Below are positions 6,280 to 13,420 of a stretch of 13,590 nt of DNA, piece by piece. Origin of the DNA: Desulfuromonas sp. SDB (lineage in GTDB: Bacteria; SDB-A). The position numbers were made by a program, and so were the translations under genes. The stretch is taken from positions 1-13,590 of the forward strand of contig LKUE01000318.1 in assembly GCA_001412365.1 (NCBI GenBank). Direction: 5' to 3'. Each line of letters opens with the position of its first letter. Position 1 is the stretch's first letter. Under the pieces are notes generated by a model. It saw only the letters and a list, made by a program, of their open reading frames with translations, had not been told where the DNA came from and did not search any database.

Positions 6280-6406
6280 ACCTGAAATTCAATTTTATTA
6301 AGTTTATTAATCTCCCTGTAATAATATTAATTTAATTTTAAAATATTATCATCTATCATCCGAATCTGTCTTCCCAATATTCACCTGCCCTGTAGCACCT
6401 GCCACA

Positions 6407-6471
6407 ATCCGCGTTCAATGCCTTAGGGGTGGAGTTGACTTCCTGTGTTTTACTGTGTTTATCCGTGGTTA
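6407..6471. repeat. 65-bp direct repeat, copy 1
   Basis: This block recurs at 6590-6654, offset by 183 bases, with a single difference (A at 6438, G at 6621). Its ends contain short near-repeats of about ten bases, CTGTGTTTTA, CTGTGTTTA and TCCGTGGTTA. That texture resembles a family of intergenic repeats built from TCCGTG/TCTGTG units that I recall from other anaerobe genomes; the link was not tested. It is richer in GC than its surroundings. Confidence 0.9.
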
Positions 6472-6518
6472 ACAGCTGTTTAAAAAAATAGTATTCCCCA
6501 ATCTTTTAAATCAATATT

Positions 6519-6550
6519 TGATGAAAGCATTTAAAAAAATGCTTTCATCA
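6519..6550. repeat. Perfect 14-bp-stem hairpin between the two direct repeats
   Basis: TGATGAAAGCATTT (6519-6532) pairs without error with AAATGCTTTCATCA (6537-6550) across a four-A loop. It lies centrally between the two 65-bp repeats. It lacks a GC-rich stem and a clear T-tract on either strand, so it is not a classical terminator. It may be part of a small mobile or repeat element, or a bidirectional transcript boundary. Confidence 0.85.
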
Positions 6551-6589
6551 TCTATATATTTTATCCGTAAATCCATTAAAATCCTGTCC

Positions 6590-6654
6590 ATCCGCGTTCA
6601 ATGCCTTAGGGGTGGAGTTGGCTTCCTGTGTTTTACTGTGTTTATCCGTGGTTA
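6590..6654. repeat. 65-bp direct repeat, copy 2
   Basis: This is the second copy of the block at 6407-6471, 64 of 65 bases identical. Just to its left (6561-6589) lie further fragments of the same texture (TTATCCGTAAATCC, ATCCTGTCC) that are not found before copy 1, so copy 2 may be the fuller version. It ends about 35 bases before the candidate promoter of the methionine region. Confidence 0.9.
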
Positions 6655-6689
6655 CAAAAATTAGGGGAGACAGGGTGGCAAAAAAACAC

Positions 6690-6717
6690 TTGTATTTTCA
6701 CCACAATATGATAAATA
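6690..6717 (+). promoter_or_regulatory. Candidate promoter for the short Met-rich frame and methionine operon
   Basis: TTGTAT at 6690-6695 is followed after 16 bases by TAAATA at 6712-6717, with an overlapping TATGAT at 6707. The match is moderate. It is the best candidate directly upstream of the strong ribosome binding site at 6731-6737. Confidence 0.35.
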
Positions 6718-6742
6718 AAACAAAATTAATAAGGAGGTTGTT

Positions 6743-6901
6743 ATGTTTCGAACATCACTGAAGCTGGGATCAACAGGCTTAAAAGCCGGTTCATCATCTC
6801 TTGAAAACACCCTGTTTTCATCTTTTTCCTCTAAATCTCTTATTAATATCATTCTCTTCAACATGCACATGTGCGCCATGCCCATGGGTATGTGGAACTA
6901 A
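6743..6901 (+). CDS. 52-residue Ser-rich peptide with Met/Cys-rich C-terminus; possible leader peptide
   Basis: An ATG at 6743 follows a textbook AAGGAGGT (6731-6738) at ideal distance and opens a frame of 52 codons ending at 6899-6901. I recognise no family. Residues 1-30 are rich in serine and glycine (GSTGLKAGSSSLEN), 31-39 are hydrophobic (KSLINIILF), and the last 12 residues read NMHMCAMPMGMWN, with five methionines, one cysteine and one histidine. It stops 143 bases before a methionine biosynthesis operon, and dyads lie in that gap, so it could be a leader peptide whose translation senses Met-tRNA supply; a small metal-binding peptide or modified-peptide precursor is also possible. A caution: the Met codons lie in DNA rich in CATG, including the palindromes GCACATGTGC (6865-6874) and CCCATGGG (6881-6888), so part of the pattern may come from DNA symmetry rather than protein selection. 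Confidence 0.5.
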   Translation: MFRTSLKLGSTGLKAGSSSLENTLFSSFSSKSLINIILFNMHMCAMPMGMWN

Positions 6902-6929
6902 GTAATTCCCTTTTTCACATACAGCATAA

Positions 6930-6963
6930 CTGAAATTTAAGCATTATTACGCTTAAATCTCAG
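6930..6963 (+). promoter_or_regulatory. Imperfect hairpin downstream of the short Met-rich frame
   Basis: CTGA-A-ATTTAAGC (6930-6942) pairs with GCTTAAAT-C-TCAG (6951-6963) across an eight-base loop: 12 pairs with one A/C mismatch. No T-tract follows, so it is not an obvious terminator; it may be an operator dyad or part of a leader RNA fold. Confidence 0.5.
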
Positions 6964-6990
6964 AATCATGCCGTTTACCCGTCATCAAAA

Positions 6991-7004
6991 GCAGGTTTAC
7001 CTGC
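6991..7004 (+). promoter_or_regulatory. Short GC-containing dyad before the methionine operon
   Basis: GCAGGT and ACCTGC flank two bases and could form a small hairpin or a repressor half-site pair. GTTTACC occurs twice here (6973-6979 and 6995-7001). A further near-palindrome ATAACCAGTTAT lies at 7017-7028, just before the AAAAGGAG ribosome binding site of the first structural gene. Confidence 0.4.
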
Positions 7005-7044
7005 AATAGTGGCAATATAACCAGTTATTTAAAAGGAGAAAAAC

Positions 7045-8457
7045 ATGCGTTTTAAAAGTTTCGATGAAATAAACCGTAAAATAAGATCAGGTTCGGCAGT
7101 AGTATTAACTGCCAGAGAAGTGACCAAATTGGCTCGTACTAAATCGGCATCGGAGATTGCTAAAACCGTGGATGTGGTCACTACTGCCACATTTTCACCG
7201 ATGTGCTCCAGCGGGGTATTTTTAAATTTCGGTAACTGCCATCCTCCTATCAGGATGGAGAATGTCAGATTAAATAATGTCTCCGCCTATGCCGGTCTAG
7301 CCGCTGTAGATGCTTATATCGGAGCAACTCAGCTATCCGAAAACAAACCGGATTACGGAGGAGCCCATGTAATTGAGGAGTTAATTGCAGGGAAAGACAT
7401 TTTGCTGGAGGCAGAATCTTCGGGAACTGACTGCTATCCCCGCAGAAAGATAAAGGCATTGATCAACAAGCATAGTATCAATGAAGCAATTATGTTCAAT
7501 CCCCGGAACTGTTATCAGAATTATCCGGTGGCGGTGAACAGCAGCAATCAAAAGAAATATACCTATATGGGTATCCTGGAGCCAAATTTATCCAATGCCA
7601 ATTACTGCACATCGGGAGAGTTAAGTCCTCTTATCAACGATCCCTACCTGCAGACTATCGGCATCGGCACCAGAATATTTCTGGGAGGAGCGCAGGGATT
7701 CATCAGCTGGAACGGAACCCAGTTCTGCTCCGGTCACCAAAGGAATAAGTTCGGAATTCCCTTGATGAATGCAGCTACTTTGGCGGTAACCGCAGATCTG
7801 AAGAATATGAGCGCTGAATTCATTCAGGCTGCTTATTTTAAACATTACGGAGTCAGCCTTTATGTGGGGTTGGGCATACCTATTCCTATCCTGGATGAGG
7901 AGATTGCCGCTCAGGTCATAATCTCCAACCAGCAAATCCCTGTACCGGTGGTAGATTTCGGTCAGCCAGATCATCCGGTTATCGCTTATGTCAGCTACAA
8001 GGAGTTAACCGCAGGAACAATCAAGCTCAACGGAATTAACATCCCCACCTCTTCAATTTCCAGCAGTTACATAGCCGGATACATCGCCGGAGTGCTTAAA
8101 CATCAAATTTTAGAGAATAAATTTACTCTGAGCAGACCGGTACAGCTGTTGCCCCCAAAGGAATCTTTGAACAGCTTAAACCCGATTGTTGAAATGCCTG
8201 AACAGATTTTTGAAACTGAACAGGAGATTTTATTAAATGAAAATCTCAGCTTTAACTTTTCCAAATGCATCCACTGCGGACTATGCATAAATGTCTGTCC
8301 CTCTGCAGTTTTCCAGTTCAATTCAGAGGGGATATTAAGTTACGACCAAACCAGATGCACCTGCTGTTTTAAATGTGTAGAAATCTGCCCTTTGAAATTG
8401 TTCCGGTCAGTCAAGGTGAACTATGAAAAATTCAAGACAGTACCGCTATCAGGTTAA
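7045..8457 (+). CDS. Homocysteine biosynthesis protein (DUF39/COG1900) with C-terminal 2x[4Fe-4S] ferredoxin domain
   Basis: The 470-residue product is a DUF39 (COG1900) protein. Conserved segments are TTATFSPMCSSGVFLNFGNC with C54, and ESSGTDCYPRRK with C130, the two cysteines I recall as conserved in the family, where the first is thought to carry sulfur. Residues 400-455 form a diferredoxin: C408-x2-C411-x2-C414-x3-C418-P, then C438-x2-C441-x2-C444-x3-C448-P, with an extra C440. In Methanosarcina acetivorans the COG1900 and COG2122 pair is genetically linked to making homocysteine from aspartate semialdehyde and sulfide; the ferredoxin part would deliver the electrons. The ATG follows AAAAGGAG. 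The gene overlaps the COG2122 gene by 35 bases and heads a five-gene methionine operon, which supports the assigned role. It is cytoplasmic, with no membrane segments. Confidence 0.9.
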   Translation: MRFKSFDEINRKIRSGSAVVLTAREVTKLARTKSASEIAKTVDVVTTATFSPMCSSGVFLNFGNCHPPIRMENVRLNNVSAYAGLAAVDAYIGATQLSENKPDYGGAHVIEELIAGKDILLEAESSGTDCYPRRKIKALINKHSINEAIMFNPRNCYQNYPVAVNSSNQKKYTYMGILEPNLSNANYCTSGELSPLINDPYLQTIGIGTRIFLGGAQGFISWNGTQFCSGHQRNKFGIPLMNAATLAVTADLKNMSAEFIQAAYFKHYGVSLYVGLGIPIPILDEEIAAQVIISNQQIPVPVVDFGQPDHPVIAYVSYKELTAGTIKLNGINIPTSSISSSYIAGYIAGVLKHQILENKFTLSRPVQLLPPKESLNSLNPIVEMPEQIFETEQEILLNENLSFNFSKCIHCGLCINVCPSAVFQFNSEGILSYDQTRCTCCFKCVEICPLKLFRSVKVNYEKFKTVPLSG

Positions 8458-9193
8458 ATCAGAGAATCTGGTAAAATTTCTGGTCTGCTATAAACAGTCC
8501 GATCTGTGGATCGGAATAGATAAACAGAGTTACCAATTAATCTATCCGGATTTAATTTACCGAAAATTGGTAAAGTTAAGACATCTTTTTGAAACTCATG
8601 TTGCTAAATATCCTGATTTCAAGTCATCTCTTACTCCTATTATTCCTCCAGCAGATGCAGAACCGATGATAACCCATCTCTACCAGCTATCTGAAAAAGT
8701 CGGAGTAGGACCTTTGGCCGGTATTGCCGGATGCTTTGCCCAACAAATCGGAGAATTCATTATAAAAAAGCTGGGCGGAAAACAACTAATTGTTGAAAAC
8801 GGAGGAGATATCTACATCAACGGTCAACAAACATCCCAGGTTTTGATATTTTCACAGAAATCAAAATTAACCCATGCGTTCAGTATTGAAATCACTCCGG
8901 ATATCACCCCCTGCGGAGTTTGCACTTCTTCGGGTAAATACGGACATTCCAAGAATTTGGGTAAAGCTGACAGTGTCACTGTAATTTGCGGGGATGCGGT
9001 GATGGCTGATTTACTGGCAACTGCATTGAGCAATGAAATTAAATCAGCCCGGGATATTGAAAAAGTTCTGGAGTGGTCGGAGAAAATTGATGAAATCATA
9101 TTTATTGCCATAATATTCAACCAACACATTGGGTTCAGGGGTAAATGTAATATTTACCCCATTGCCCAGGAGGGAACAAGCTATGCGGATTGA
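8423..9193 (+). CDS. UPF0280/COG2122 family protein (ApbE-like fold), partner in homocysteine formation
   Basis: The 256-residue protein shows the UPF0280 signatures. VGVGPLAGIAGCFAQQIGEF (residues 93-112) precedes VENGGDIYING, and TPCGVCTSSGKYGHS precedes KADSVTV and a late ADLLATALSNEI. The GG-D-I-Y and TSSG...GHS blocks recall the flavin transferase ApbE, to whose fold the family is related, though the ApbE activity itself is not implied. In methanogens this family is found beside COG1900 and is required with it for sulfide incorporation into homocysteine; the precise step is not established. The ATG is preceded by AAGGTGAA and lies inside the upstream gene, so the two are translationally coupled and probably form a complex. 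Its 3' end carries a perfect hairpin (9138-9160) and the metF ribosome binding site. Confidence 0.88.
   Translation: MKNSRQYRYQVKSENLVKFLVCYKQSDLWIGIDKQSYQLIYPDLIYRKLVKLRHLFETHVAKYPDFKSSLTPIIPPADAEPMITHLYQLSEKVGVGPLAGIAGCFAQQIGEFIIKKLGGKQLIVENGGDIYINGQQTSQVLIFSQKSKLTHAFSIEITPDITPCGVCTSSGKYGHSKNLGKADSVTVICGDAVMADLLATALSNEIKSARDIEKVLEWSEKIDEIIFIAIIFNQHIGFRGKCNIYPIAQEGTSYAD
9138..9160 (+). promoter_or_regulatory. Perfect 9-bp-stem hairpin just upstream of the metF ribosome binding site
   Basis: GGGGTAAAT (9138-9146) pairs exactly with ATTTACCCC (9152-9160) across the five-base loop GTAAT. It lies within the UPF0280 coding region, seven bases before AGGAGGG (9168-9174). It is followed by no T-run, so it is not a terminator. 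It could set message cleavage, stability or the relative translation of metF. Confidence 0.65.
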
Positions 9194-10145
9194 TCAATAT
9201 ATTGCTTGTCAACAACAACCCTTCCTTTCCTTGGAATTAGTACCTCCCAGGAGAGGCGGCTCTGTAAATGATATTTTTAAAACCATAGATCAGTTAATTT
9301 CCTATTCACCAAAATTCATTAATGTCACCAACAGGTGCAACTCCGTGATTTTTAAAAATTGCAAGGGCAAACCGGTCAAAACCCCACTCAACAATAAACC
9401 GGGGACATTAGGAGTATCGGTGGCAATAAATCAGAAGTTTAATATACCCACTGTTCCTCATCTGGTAGTCAGTGGTATGGATAAATTTGAATTAGAGGAC
9501 TTATTGATTAATCTGAATTATCTTGGATTTAAAAATATATTTGTTATCAGAGGGGATCAAGCCGAACCGGATACTTTTCTTGATCAAAATCCTGATCAGT
9601 ACCAATACGCCAGCAGTTTAGTAGAACAAATCAACCTGATGAATCAGGGGATTTATTCAACTTCTGCTTTGAACAACACTCCCACTGAGTTCTGCATAGG
9701 AGTTGCCGGTTATCCGGAGAAGCATTATCAGGCAGTAAATTTTGACTACGACTTGAATTACTTAAAACAAAAAGTTAACCGGGGTGCTTCCTACATTATT
9801 ACCCAGATATTTTACAGCTTTTCCACCTATGTAAATTTTCTGAAAAAAGCCAGGGACATTGGAATTGATGTCCCCATAATTCCCGGACTTAAACCAATTA
9901 CCAGCTGCAGTCAGCTATACTCCCTTCCCCCCAGATTTTTCATTTCCATTCCCACGGAGCTTGCCAAAAATCTGGAATCGGCGAAATCTCCTCAGCAGGA
10001 ATGGGAAGCGGGAATAGCCTATATGAACGATCTTATAAATCAACTTTTGGATTTCGGGGTTCCCGCCATCCATCTTTTTACCATGGGCAAAAACCGATCA
10101 ATTAAAGCATTACTTGATCAAATAAACCCAAGATTAGTAAAATAG
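9183..10145 (+). CDS. metF: 5,10-methylenetetrahydrofolate reductase
   Basis: The 320-residue enzyme reduces methylene-THF to 5-methyl-THF, the methyl donor for methionine synthase encoded next. It shows the MTHFR TIM-barrel pattern: FLSLELVPPRRGG with E18 in the position of the family's catalytic glutamate, PHLVVSGMD at 92-100, the IFVIRGD flavin-binding strand at 119-125, a GVAGYPEKH segment, YIITQIFYSF, and PGLKPITS followed by a C-terminal HLFTMGKN. An upstream in-frame start at 9129 would add 18 residues, but AGGAGGG eight bases before the ATG at 9183 and the family N-terminus favour 9183. It overlaps the UPF0280 gene by 11 bases. No MetV-like partner gene, known with some clostridial enzymes, is adjacent, so its electron donor is open. 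Confidence 0.92.
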   Translation: MRIDQYIACQQQPFLSLELVPPRRGGSVNDIFKTIDQLISYSPKFINVTNRCNSVIFKNCKGKPVKTPLNNKPGTLGVSVAINQKFNIPTVPHLVVSGMDKFELEDLLINLNYLGFKNIFVIRGDQAEPDTFLDQNPDQYQYASSLVEQINLMNQGIYSTSALNNTPTEFCIGVAGYPEKHYQAVNFDYDLNYLKQKVNRGASYIITQIFYSFSTYVNFLKKARDIGIDVPIIPGLKPITSCSQLYSLPPRFFISIPTELAKNLESAKSPQQEWEAGIAYMNDLINQLLDFGVPAIHLFTMGKNRSIKALLDQINPRLVK

Positions 10146-10161
10146 GATAGGAGAGCAGATT

Positions 10162-12690
10162 ATGTACAAGATAGACAAATTGGTTCAAGATAAAGTCTTA
10201 ATTACCGATGGGGGGATGGGAACTTCCATTCAAAGTTATCAACTAAATCAAACTCACTACCAGGATTATCCCGGCTGTTATGAATACCTGAACATCTCCG
10301 CCCCCCGGATTATACAAGAAATCCATTATCATTTCATCCAGGCTGGAGCGGATATAATTGAAACTAACACCTTCGGAGCAAATCAGCTTTCTCTGGAAGA
10401 AAAAAAATTAGCGGATAGAACTGCCGAAATCAACTTCCGGGCAGTTCAAATCGCAAAACAAGCGGTAAAACTCTCAAACAAAGATGACATTATGATTTCC
10501 GGTTCAGTTGGACCGGGAACCAAACTGCCTTCTTTAAATCAGGTAAGTTTTAAGAGACTTCATCAATCCTATCTACCCCAGTTCCAGGGTCTATTGCAGG
10601 GAGGAGTTGATTTAATTCAAATTGAAACCTGCCAGGATCCCCTTCAGATCAAAGCAGCAGTTCTTGCTGCAGTAGATAAGATGAATGAACTGAATACTAA
10701 AGTTCCCCTAATAGTTCAGGTTACTGTGGATAAATTTGGAAAATTATTGGTGGGAACCTCATTGCAAGCAGTGGTGTCAATTTTCCAGTCCTTTGATCTA
10801 TGGGCATTGGGAATAAATTGCGGTTTTGGTCCCGTTCAGCTGGAGGATTCACTGGAAGAGTTGGTCAGAATAAATCCTTTTCCTACCAGTTTCATCCCCA
10901 ATGCGGGTATTCCAAAAACAGTTAATGGGAAATTGCATTATGATTTAAACAGTGATGACTTCGCCGATCAGGTGTCGGAGTTGGTAAAAAGGCATTCGGT
11001 AGCTATCACCGGGGGATGCTGCGGAACCACTCCTGAATACATTCAAAAATTAAAACGGAATATGGAAAACTACGTTCCTTCTATCCGTAAAAAAGAGAGA
11101 AAACCTTCGGTTTGCTCACTGTACAAATCAATGCCCTTATCCCAACATCCTAAACCGTTTATTATCAGCGAAAAGACCAATGTAACCGGCAGCAGAAAAT
11201 TTAAAAATGCACTGCTTGAAAATGACTACACTACCCTTTATAAAATTGCCGCAGAGCAGCAAAAAAATCAGATCCATGCCCTGGATTTATCATTAGGCTA
11301 TTCGGGGAGGGATGAGGTCAAAGATGCCCTGATCATGACATCTCATTTAAATCAGAGTTTAACTGTTCCCCTGTGCTTCGACTCCACTGATCCCGATGTG
11401 ATTCAAACCGTGCTGGAGAGGTATTCAGGTAAATGCATCATCAATTCAGTGAACCTGCAAAATCCACAAAAAGCTGAAAAAATATTTTCCTTAGCAACCC
11501 GGTTTAAAACAGCATTGATCTGTCTATTAATTGACCAGGAGGGAATGGCTTTAAGTTTAAATAAAAAAATGGAAATAACTCAAAGAATATATAATATAGC
11601 CACCGAGAAATACAATATAAAGCCTTATGATCTGATTTTTGATCCCCTAACCTTCACTCTGGGTTCAGGGAAGCAGGAATATGCAGACACGGCAGTCCAA
11701 TCTTTAGAATCAATTTCCAGGATAAAAAATAAATTCCCGGAAGTAAAAACCATTCTGGGGATAAGTAATATCTCCTATGGTTTAAATTCTAAATTACGCA
11801 AAATCTTGAATTCAGTATTTTTATATCATGCAGTGAAACAGGGTTTGGATATAGCCATTGTTGACCAAAATAAAATCATTCCTCTCAATAAGATTCCTTC
11901 AAAACTAGTTGCCCTGGCTGTAGATTTAATATTCAACCGGAGTTCCAGTCAGTACAATCCGCTGATGGAACTTATAAGATGCCACTCTGATTCTGATTTT
12001 TCAGATTATTCTGAAATAAAATTGTCTGAATCTGTTTCTGATCAATTAAGCTCTCAGCTGATCAATGGAGATTTGTCCATCTCCATAACCGTGGAAAAAG
12101 CATTAACCGATCTCAATCCCCATGATATCCTCAACCATATTCTTCTTCCATCCATGGATAAAGTAGGGAAATTATTCGAAGAAGGATTGATGCAGCTGCC
12201 CTTTGTATTAAAGTCTGCTGAAGCTATGCATTCGGCTATTGAAGTTTTAAAACCTCATCTATCCGCGAAAAATGATTTATCATCTGCTAAAATACTTCTG
12301 GCTACAGTTAGAGGAGATATTCACGATATTGGAAAAAATTTAGTCAACATCATTTTAACCAATAATGGAATTGAAGTTGAAGATATTGGAGTAGATCAAT
12401 CTGCACAGAAAATATTAGAAGCAGTAAATAGATATAAACCCGCCTTCATCGGGTTAAGCGGTTTGCTGGTGGAATCAGCTCTGGAGATGAAGCAGATAAT
12501 CAAGTTTTTAAATTCAAATCAGGTGAGTTTGCCCATTATCTGCGGAGGAGCAGGTTTAAATCCGGATTTCGTTCTAACTAATCTTCAGTCAATCTACTCA
12601 GGTCCTGTTTCCTACGGAAAAGATGGATTTCAGGCATTGCAGATAATTAAAAACCATATCCAGCAATCTAAAAAAAACTTCAATGAATAA
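10162..12690 (+). CDS. metH: Cobalamin-dependent methionine synthase lacking the activation domain
   Basis: The 842-residue enzyme transfers the methyl group from 5-methyl-THF through cobalamin to homocysteine. Domains in order: homocysteine-binding barrel (about 1-300) with DGGMGTS and the zinc ligands C220 (GINCGFGP) and C286-C287 (GGCCGTTPE); pterin-binding barrel (about 330-590) starting IISEKTNVTGSRKF; the B12 cap helices (about 620-705); and the Rossmann B12 domain with D719-I-H721-D-I-G724, where H721 is the lower cobalt ligand. The usual C-terminal SAM-dependent reactivation domain of full MetH (about 1,200 residues) is absent; the next gene encodes it. AGGAGAG precedes the ATG and metF ends 16 bases upstream. 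The two genes supply and use the same folate. All key metal and cobalamin residues are present, so it should be active. Confidence 0.95.
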   Translation: MYKIDKLVQDKVLITDGGMGTSIQSYQLNQTHYQDYPGCYEYLNISAPRIIQEIHYHFIQAGADIIETNTFGANQLSLEEKKLADRTAEINFRAVQIAKQAVKLSNKDDIMISGSVGPGTKLPSLNQVSFKRLHQSYLPQFQGLLQGGVDLIQIETCQDPLQIKAAVLAAVDKMNELNTKVPLIVQVTVDKFGKLLVGTSLQAVVSIFQSFDLWALGINCGFGPVQLEDSLEELVRINPFPTSFIPNAGIPKTVNGKLHYDLNSDDFADQVSELVKRHSVAITGGCCGTTPEYIQKLKRNMENYVPSIRKKERKPSVCSLYKSMPLSQHPKPFIISEKTNVTGSRKFKNALLENDYTTLYKIAAEQQKNQIHALDLSLGYSGRDEVKDALIMTSHLNQSLTVPLCFDSTDPDVIQTVLERYSGKCIINSVNLQNPQKAEKIFSLATRFKTALICLLIDQEGMALSLNKKMEITQRIYNIATEKYNIKPYDLIFDPLTFTLGSGKQEYADTAVQSLESISRIKNKFPEVKTILGISNISYGLNSKLRKILNSVFLYHAVKQGLDIAIVDQNKIIPLNKIPSKLVALAVDLIFNRSSSQYNPLMELIRCHSDSDFSDYSEIKLSESVSDQLSSQLINGDLSISITVEKALTDLNPHDILNHILLPSMDKVGKLFEEGLMQLPFVLKSAEAMHSAIEVLKPHLSAKNDLSSAKILLATVRGDIHDIGKNLVNIILTNNGIEVEDIGVDQSAQKILEAVNRYKPAFIGLSGLLVESALEMKQIIKFLNSNQVSLPIICGGAGLNPDFVLTNLQSIYSGPVSYGKDGFQALQIIKNHIQQSKKNFNE

Positions 12691-13420
12691 CCGAAGTCCG
12701 GATATTACTCCCCCTTTCTGGGGAATTAAACTGGTTCAGCCTGAAATAGAGGAGGTAACTGAATTTCTGGATAAGAAGGCGTTATTCCAGGCTAGATGGA
12801 AGATCAAAAAGCAACCGGAAAACAGGGCAGACAGCGAGAAAATTCTGGCAGAACTTTTAACCACGGTAAAATCGGAAAAACTGATTCAACTCAAAACTGT
12901 TTACGGTTACTTTAAATGCCATCGAGTTGGTGATACGGTAGTGATCAATAATGAAAAACAAGGCAGACCTTTTAACAAGCTTACTTTTCCCCGGCTACCC
13001 CAAAAACCAAATTTATGCATTTCCGATTATTTTAAAGATGCTCCTACCTTTTCCGATCTTATATCCATCTACGCGGTTACTGCTGGGTTATTAATATCCA
13101 AATACCTTCAACAACTTTATTCAGGTCACCATTATTCTCGATACTTTCTGCTTTCTGCTGTAGCTGGAGAATTAGCGGAAGCAGGTGCAAAGTATTTAAA
13201 TAACAAAATTGAACAGGAGTTAGAAGTTAATTTCAGCCGGAGATACAGTCTGGGTTATCCTTGTTGTCCCGATCTCAAATATCAGAAAATTTTATTGGAT
13301 ATAGTTCAGGCAGATAAGATTGGTTTAGGTTTAACTGAAAGTTTCCAGTTAAAACCGGAATACAGCACTAACGGTTTTCTAGTGTTCAGCCCCCGAGCTG
13401 TTTACTTTAAAATCAAATAA
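12683..13420 (+). CDS. Stand-alone methionine synthase activation domain protein
   Basis: This 245-residue protein resembles the SAM-binding reactivation domain that forms the C-terminus of large MetH. The best marker is R187-Y-S-L-G-Y-P-C-C-P-D near the C-terminus, corresponding to the RxxPGYPACP SAM-binding segment, followed by IGLGLTESFQLKPEYSTNGFLVF, as in the ELTESF..P..S block of the family. PPFWGIKLV at the start and LFQARWKI fit the family's N-terminal strands. It would reductively methylate inactive cob(II)alamin on the partner synthase, using SAM and an electron donor such as flavodoxin or ferredoxin. The ATG overlaps the end of metH by eight bases and has no strong ribosome binding site, so translation probably depends on metH. 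Splitting domain from enzyme is known in several anaerobic and thermophilic bacteria. Confidence 0.85.
   Translation: MNNRSPDITPPFWGIKLVQPEIEEVTEFLDKKALFQARWKIKKQPENRADSEKILAELLTTVKSEKLIQLKTVYGYFKCHRVGDTVVINNEKQGRPFNKLTFPRLPQKPNLCISDYFKDAPTFSDLISIYAVTAGLLISKYLQQLYSGHHYSRYFLLSAVAGELAEAGAKYLNNKIEQELEVNFSRRYSLGYPCCPDLKYQKILLDIVQADKIGLGLTESFQLKPEYSTNGFLVFSPRAVYFKIK

Follow-up and report, generated by a model that had tools for sequence, protein, structure and literature searches.

Short leader peptides serve the ribosome-mediated attenuators of amino acid operons, among them those of trp, his, leu, ilv and thr, and in pyrBI the leader frame overlaps the terminator itself. Methionine operons are usually governed by riboswitches, T-boxes or repressors. 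The only Met-codon attenuator that we found in the literature is metL of Streptomyces lividans TK24 (MSTTSDRTPATEATTTPGARCMCRRMCAF, followed by a stop codon), which has been proposed as a methionine leader of metNIQ (PMC8079986). Cysteine leader peptides have been described in Mycobacterium and relatives, with Rho-dependent attenuation suggested for them, and in the same survey of Actinobacteria methionine operons had no conserved RNA structure ahead of them (PMC1262725).

The window analysed here is a stretch of 13,590 nucleotides of Desulfuromonas sp. SDB (contig LKUE01000318.1). A 52-codon frame in it rather likely encodes the leader peptide of a ribosome-mediated attenuator that serves the homocysteine/methionine operon behind it, and the leader would probably switch the operon on under methionine shortage. 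The features of the locus are as follows.

6730-6737, plus strand: Shine-Dalgarno sequence of the leader frame, TAAGGAGG; AGGAGG 6/6, of equal strength in both relatives
6743-6901, plus strand: candidate leader frame of 52 codons, MFRTSLKLGSTGLKAGSSSLENTLFSSFSSKSLINIILFNMHMCAMPMGMWN and stop, from the sequence; positional counterparts in G002 and G003
6863-6892, plus strand: methionine-codon cluster, ATG at codons -12, -10, -7, -5 and -3 from the stop
6888-6922, plus strand: hairpin GUAUGUGGAA.../...UUUUUCACAUAC, 5' arm formed by the last leader codons, not U-tailed
6930-6963, plus strand: strong dyad/hairpin CTGAAATTTAAGC-N8-GCTTAAATCTCAG between leader and operon, z -6.8 as RNA
7031-7038, plus strand: Shine-Dalgarno sequence of the first operon gene, AAAAGGAG, from the sequence
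7045-8457, plus strand: HcyBio (DUF39/COG1900, homocysteine synthesis) with a C-terminal 2x[4Fe-4S] ferredoxin domain (PF01837, E 1e-142; Fer4)
8423-9193, plus strand: ApbE-like protein, COG2122-like (PF02424, E 2e-5, just below the cut-off)
9129-10145, plus strand: MetF, methylenetetrahydrofolate reductase (PF02219)
10162-12690, plus strand: MetH core with homocysteine methyltransferase, pterin and B12 domains (PF02574, PF00809, PF02607, PF02310)
12683-13420, plus strand: separate MetH reactivation domain protein (PF02965)

The coordinates and length of the frame, its Met-rich C-terminus (NMHMCAMPMGMWN), its perfect ribosome binding site and its 143-nt distance from the operon ATG at 7045 are all as the original prediction had described them. 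TAAGGAGGTT stands directly ahead of the frame, and within the Shine-Dalgarno context AAGGAGGT the AGGAGG lies 5 nt before the leader ATG. Five of the last 12 codons encode Met; in 2000 dinucleotide-preserving shuffles of region 6280-7044, no ORF of 15-80 codons carried even four or more Met among its last 12, and an ORF of this length with a 6/6 AGGAGG occurred in only 0.7% of shuffles.

Pfam assignments bore out the prediction that genes for homocysteine and methionine lie downstream: HcyBio, a COG2122-like protein, MetF, MetH and the MetH activation domain. Homocysteine synthesis in Desulfovibrio is genetically tied to DUF39 and COG2122, the latter being distantly related to ApbE (PMC5764234); by its position and weak similarity, the ApbE-like gene is what would be expected of the COG2122 member of the DUF39 pathway. 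The methionine synthase is split (10162-13420) into a core gene and an overlapping reactivation-domain gene, as it also is in G002 and, judged by ORF layout, in G003. The window HcyBio is fused to the 2x[4Fe-4S] domain and the G002 copy has no ferredoxin domain.

The original prediction had noted dyads between frame and operon, and three were found in this part of the window. The hairpin at 6888-6922 (arms 6888-6897/6913-6922) is of modest significance (z -1.7 by shuffling; 25% of synonymous recodings equally stable) and is in competition with a hairpin that spans the Met codons further upstream (about 6862-6893), neither of the two being clearly beyond chance. The dyad at 6930-6963 (arms 6930-6942/6951-6963) is followed by no U-tract, and a further dyad, GCAGGTTTACCTGC, lies at 6991-7004. 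No U-tailed terminator was found after the window leader on the plus strand, only weak or non-U-tailed hairpins.

The phylum was sampled through four genomes (G000-G003), that of the window included. HcyS and the five-gene order of the window recur in G002 and G003, with 54-55% identity in HcyS, and G001 is devoid of HcyS, so the leader comparison covers three species. In both relatives an SD-led frame (SD 6/6) occupies the corresponding position and ends about 75 nt before HcyS.

L063, 11251-11373: leader of G002, MIDIFNAEACGLSCTGISELTPGVLASERIMPSHYMRMRV and stop
L065, 14744-14872, minus strand: leader of G003, MKNIFAQTSEAGVIFCGAVESPDFSTQSSKSIMPSHYMRMRV and stop

The frame, its position and its C-terminal Met codons thus recur in both operon-bearing relatives, as a conservation check proposed with the original prediction called for. 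Between G002 and G003 the last 11 residues, IMPSHYMRMRV, are identical (11/11) and the rest of the peptide is scarcely similar, its N-terminal part having diverged. The last 11 codons and the stop differ by three base changes (ATC/ATT, TCT/TCC, TAG/TAA), so that the proposed comparison of synonymous with nonsynonymous change yielded synonymous changes only; the operon proteins of the two species are 47-69% identical, and where their residues agree the codon is the same in 43% of cases. This pattern points to purifying selection on the leader C-terminus. Met at -3, -5 and -10 from the stop is common to all three species, the window adding -7 and -12. Apart from these Met positions, the window peptide has no detectable homology with the two relatives, whose leaders hold three Met among the last 12 codons; that all three positions should fall within the five of the window has a chance of about 4.5%.

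In the relatives, the codons CAT TAC ATG CGA ATG CGC GTG TAR pair into a stem of 9-10 bp, capped by an AAUG loop and with 7-8 U behind it, a predicted intrinsic terminator inside the leader frame that overlaps its last codons. These hairpins have z values of -3.8 and -4.1 by shuffling. Among synonymous recodings of SHYMRMRV and the stop, only 1.0-1.7% are equally stable, which suggests that peptide and hairpin are retained jointly. A sigma-70-like promoter (TTGATT-18-TATCAT) precedes the G002 leader, a TATCATTCCGAA block before the leader is conserved in both relatives, and neither of them showed a promoter-like site between terminator and operon. This position makes the U-tailed hairpin look like a terminator of the leader and not like the close of an independent gene. 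The layout is compact, with Met codons, hairpin and stop codon sharing about 22 bases.

We ranked 76 HcyS upstream regions from 386 genomes by how many of the final 12 codons of an SD-led ORF encode Met, and the top three were exactly these species (5, 3 and 3 Met, all with 6/6 SD; the next had 2, then 1). An SD-led short ORF with at least three Met in the last 12 codons was accordingly present in three of the 76 regions. A peptide homologue search of 60 genomes returned the leader itself only, weak matches in G045 being interspersed repeats and not genes. The C-terminal pattern of the relatives was found in the two relatives alone among the 386 genomes, and in none of the viral contigs. Across the four phylum genomes, 14 other matches to M-x-M-x-x-stop with a T-run were examined, and not one belonged to an SD-led leader-like ORF; an MRMRY match in G001, considered as a further Met leader, is part of another gene and not in its reading frame.

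The original prediction had found neither SAM riboswitch nor T-box in the window, and this stood: no Rfam family reached its gathering score in the window, none matched 6640-7060 up to E=1, and no leader region gave an Rfam match. SAM-I (RF00162) and T-box (RF00230) were absent from all four phylum genomes, with positives obtained in control genomes; other SAM riboswitch classes were covered by the window and locus scans. Elsewhere, SAM-I (L006, L018, L119, L125, L130) or a T-box (L074, L081) stands before some HcyS genes; these elements hold the same regulatory position but are RNA sensors that involve no leader translation. None of the four phylum genomes yielded HisG, which suggests that they lack the standard histidine pathway, though methionine synthesis is kept in three.

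The conserved frame and Met codons, the synonymous-only change, the overlap with a terminator in the relatives and the absence of SAM-I and T-box support the idea, raised in the original prediction, of a methionine attenuator leader. We infer translation of the leader, stalling, read-through and a methionine signal, in the following order. The ribosome would translate the leader behind RNA polymerase; with ample charged tRNA-Met it would complete the leader and depart, the last-codon hairpin would form and, in the relatives, hairpin and U-tract would stop transcription ahead of the operon. With Met-tRNA scarce, the ribosome would pause on the ATG codons at -12, -10, -7, -5 and -3 and cover the 5' arm of the hairpin, whose formation would be blocked, and the operon would be transcribed; a separate antiterminator would be unneeded in the relatives if the ribosome is what keeps the hairpin from folding. 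The window's own hairpins may have the same effect with no canonical terminator: there, the claim draws on synteny, the SD, the Met codons and the shared Met positions, and the terminating step is one that we infer.

The locus thus appears to work like the ribosome-mediated attenuators, a likeness of arrangement rather than proven membership in the class. As in the amino acid operon attenuators, a short SD-led frame heads a biosynthetic operon, with end-product codons clustered near the stop, and a predicted intrinsic terminator that a ribosome could control is present in the two relatives, none being recognised in the window. Unlike in those systems, methionine would be the amino acid sensed, and the terminator of the relatives lies within the final codons of the leader and takes in Met codons, instead of standing downstream with a separate antiterminator; this arrangement is closer to pyrBI. 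Like the present leader, metL has C-terminal Met codons, and also Cys, before a methionine gene cluster, but it differs in its leaderless transcript, transporter operon, lack of a clear terminator and unrelated sequence, and the accessible part of its source gives no comparative support (PMC8079986). The cysteine leaders of Mycobacterium likewise carry sulfur amino acid codons near the stop, with a terminator not found, as in the window, but they concern cysteine and Actinobacteria. If the reading is correct, methionine joins the amino acids sensed by leader translation, with comparative support, in a sparsely sampled phylum without SAM-I or T-box that uses the DUF39 route to homocysteine. Since Met shortage also slows initiation, how a leader that itself starts with Met can report that shortage is a puzzle.

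Several points count against the attenuator reading: the window shows no U-tailed terminator, its coding-region hairpins barely stand out from chance, its peptide resembles the other two in Met positions alone, and the comparison spans three species. A further observation sits poorly with attenuation by Met supply: the relatives conserve the I, P and S residues ahead of the hairpin, which would be needless for it. Neither Met-codon supply nor the hairpin explains their conservation, and therefore we leave a minor but real share of the probability to a nascent-chain sensor. The nascent C-terminus (IMPSHYMRMRV and its window counterpart) would then act as an arrest peptide, with Met, SAM, homocysteine or some other signal as the trigger for ribosome stalling, and would control the same hairpins, its codons also building the controlled terminator. 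That I, P and S, outside the hairpin, are kept through synonymous changes while the N-terminal part diverges would fit such a sensor, as would the R-x-R end, which recalls stalling leaders such as the Erm leaders. The window peptide, however, has none of the relatives' non-Met residues at matching positions, the feature common across genera is the Met codons, and no bacterial Met or SAM arrest peptide was found in the literature. These points make an arrest peptide unlikely as a whole, and below attenuation by Met-codon supply in our ranking.

The leader RNA might instead hide the SD of the first gene, which a ribosome paused on the leader would free. Such translational attenuation works on paper in G002 only, in a folding exercise where GCCCUCU is predicted to pair with AGAGGGC and SD accessibility is predicted to rise from 0.02 to about 0.5-0.6 once a ribosome masks codons -12 to -3. 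Masking was without effect in G003 and inconsistent in the window (0.21-0.49 vs 0.28), and the U-tailed hairpin would be left unexplained; we regard this explanation as improbable.

Poorer still is the fit of the alternatives named in the original prediction, a small Met/Cys metal-binding protein or a modified-peptide precursor with its own terminator, lying beside the operon by chance. The MHMC of the window could bind Cu(I), and TldD/TldE-type metallopeptidase genes are confirmed directly upstream of the leader in G002, a member of the sister genus (L063 8420-11150), but no Cys/His pattern is common to the three species, and conserved adjacent maturation genes, as expected of a RiPP, do not stand beside all three: no TldD/TldE or maturase genes occur among the window neighbours examined. 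What is conserved is very short and also serves as the terminator, and no promoter-like site separates ORF and operon. Both forms of this explanation are thus very doubtful. ORFs similar to the pair of G002 are seen in G003.

That the peptide frame is incidental and the dyad at 6930-6963, strong as it is (z -6.8), serves as a repressor operator is the least probable of all, since the dyad comes after the leader and has no promoter-like site next to it, and since what recurs in the relatives is the frame, SD and Met codons, the dyad not being seen in their aligned leader.

Two further structures were observed around the leaders. Just before the HcyS SD, both relatives have a further hairpin, rich in G+C and with UUUU as its loop (L063 11420-11445; L065, minus strand), of low significance by shuffling, whose stem is kept with different bases. 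Just upstream of the window leader lies a dispersed intergenic repeat, in which two 65-nt direct repeats, 98% identical (6407-6471 and 6590-6654), flank a 25-nt inverted repeat (6508-6561) that is terminator-like on both strands; five other contigs of this genome carry partial copies (72-93% identical).
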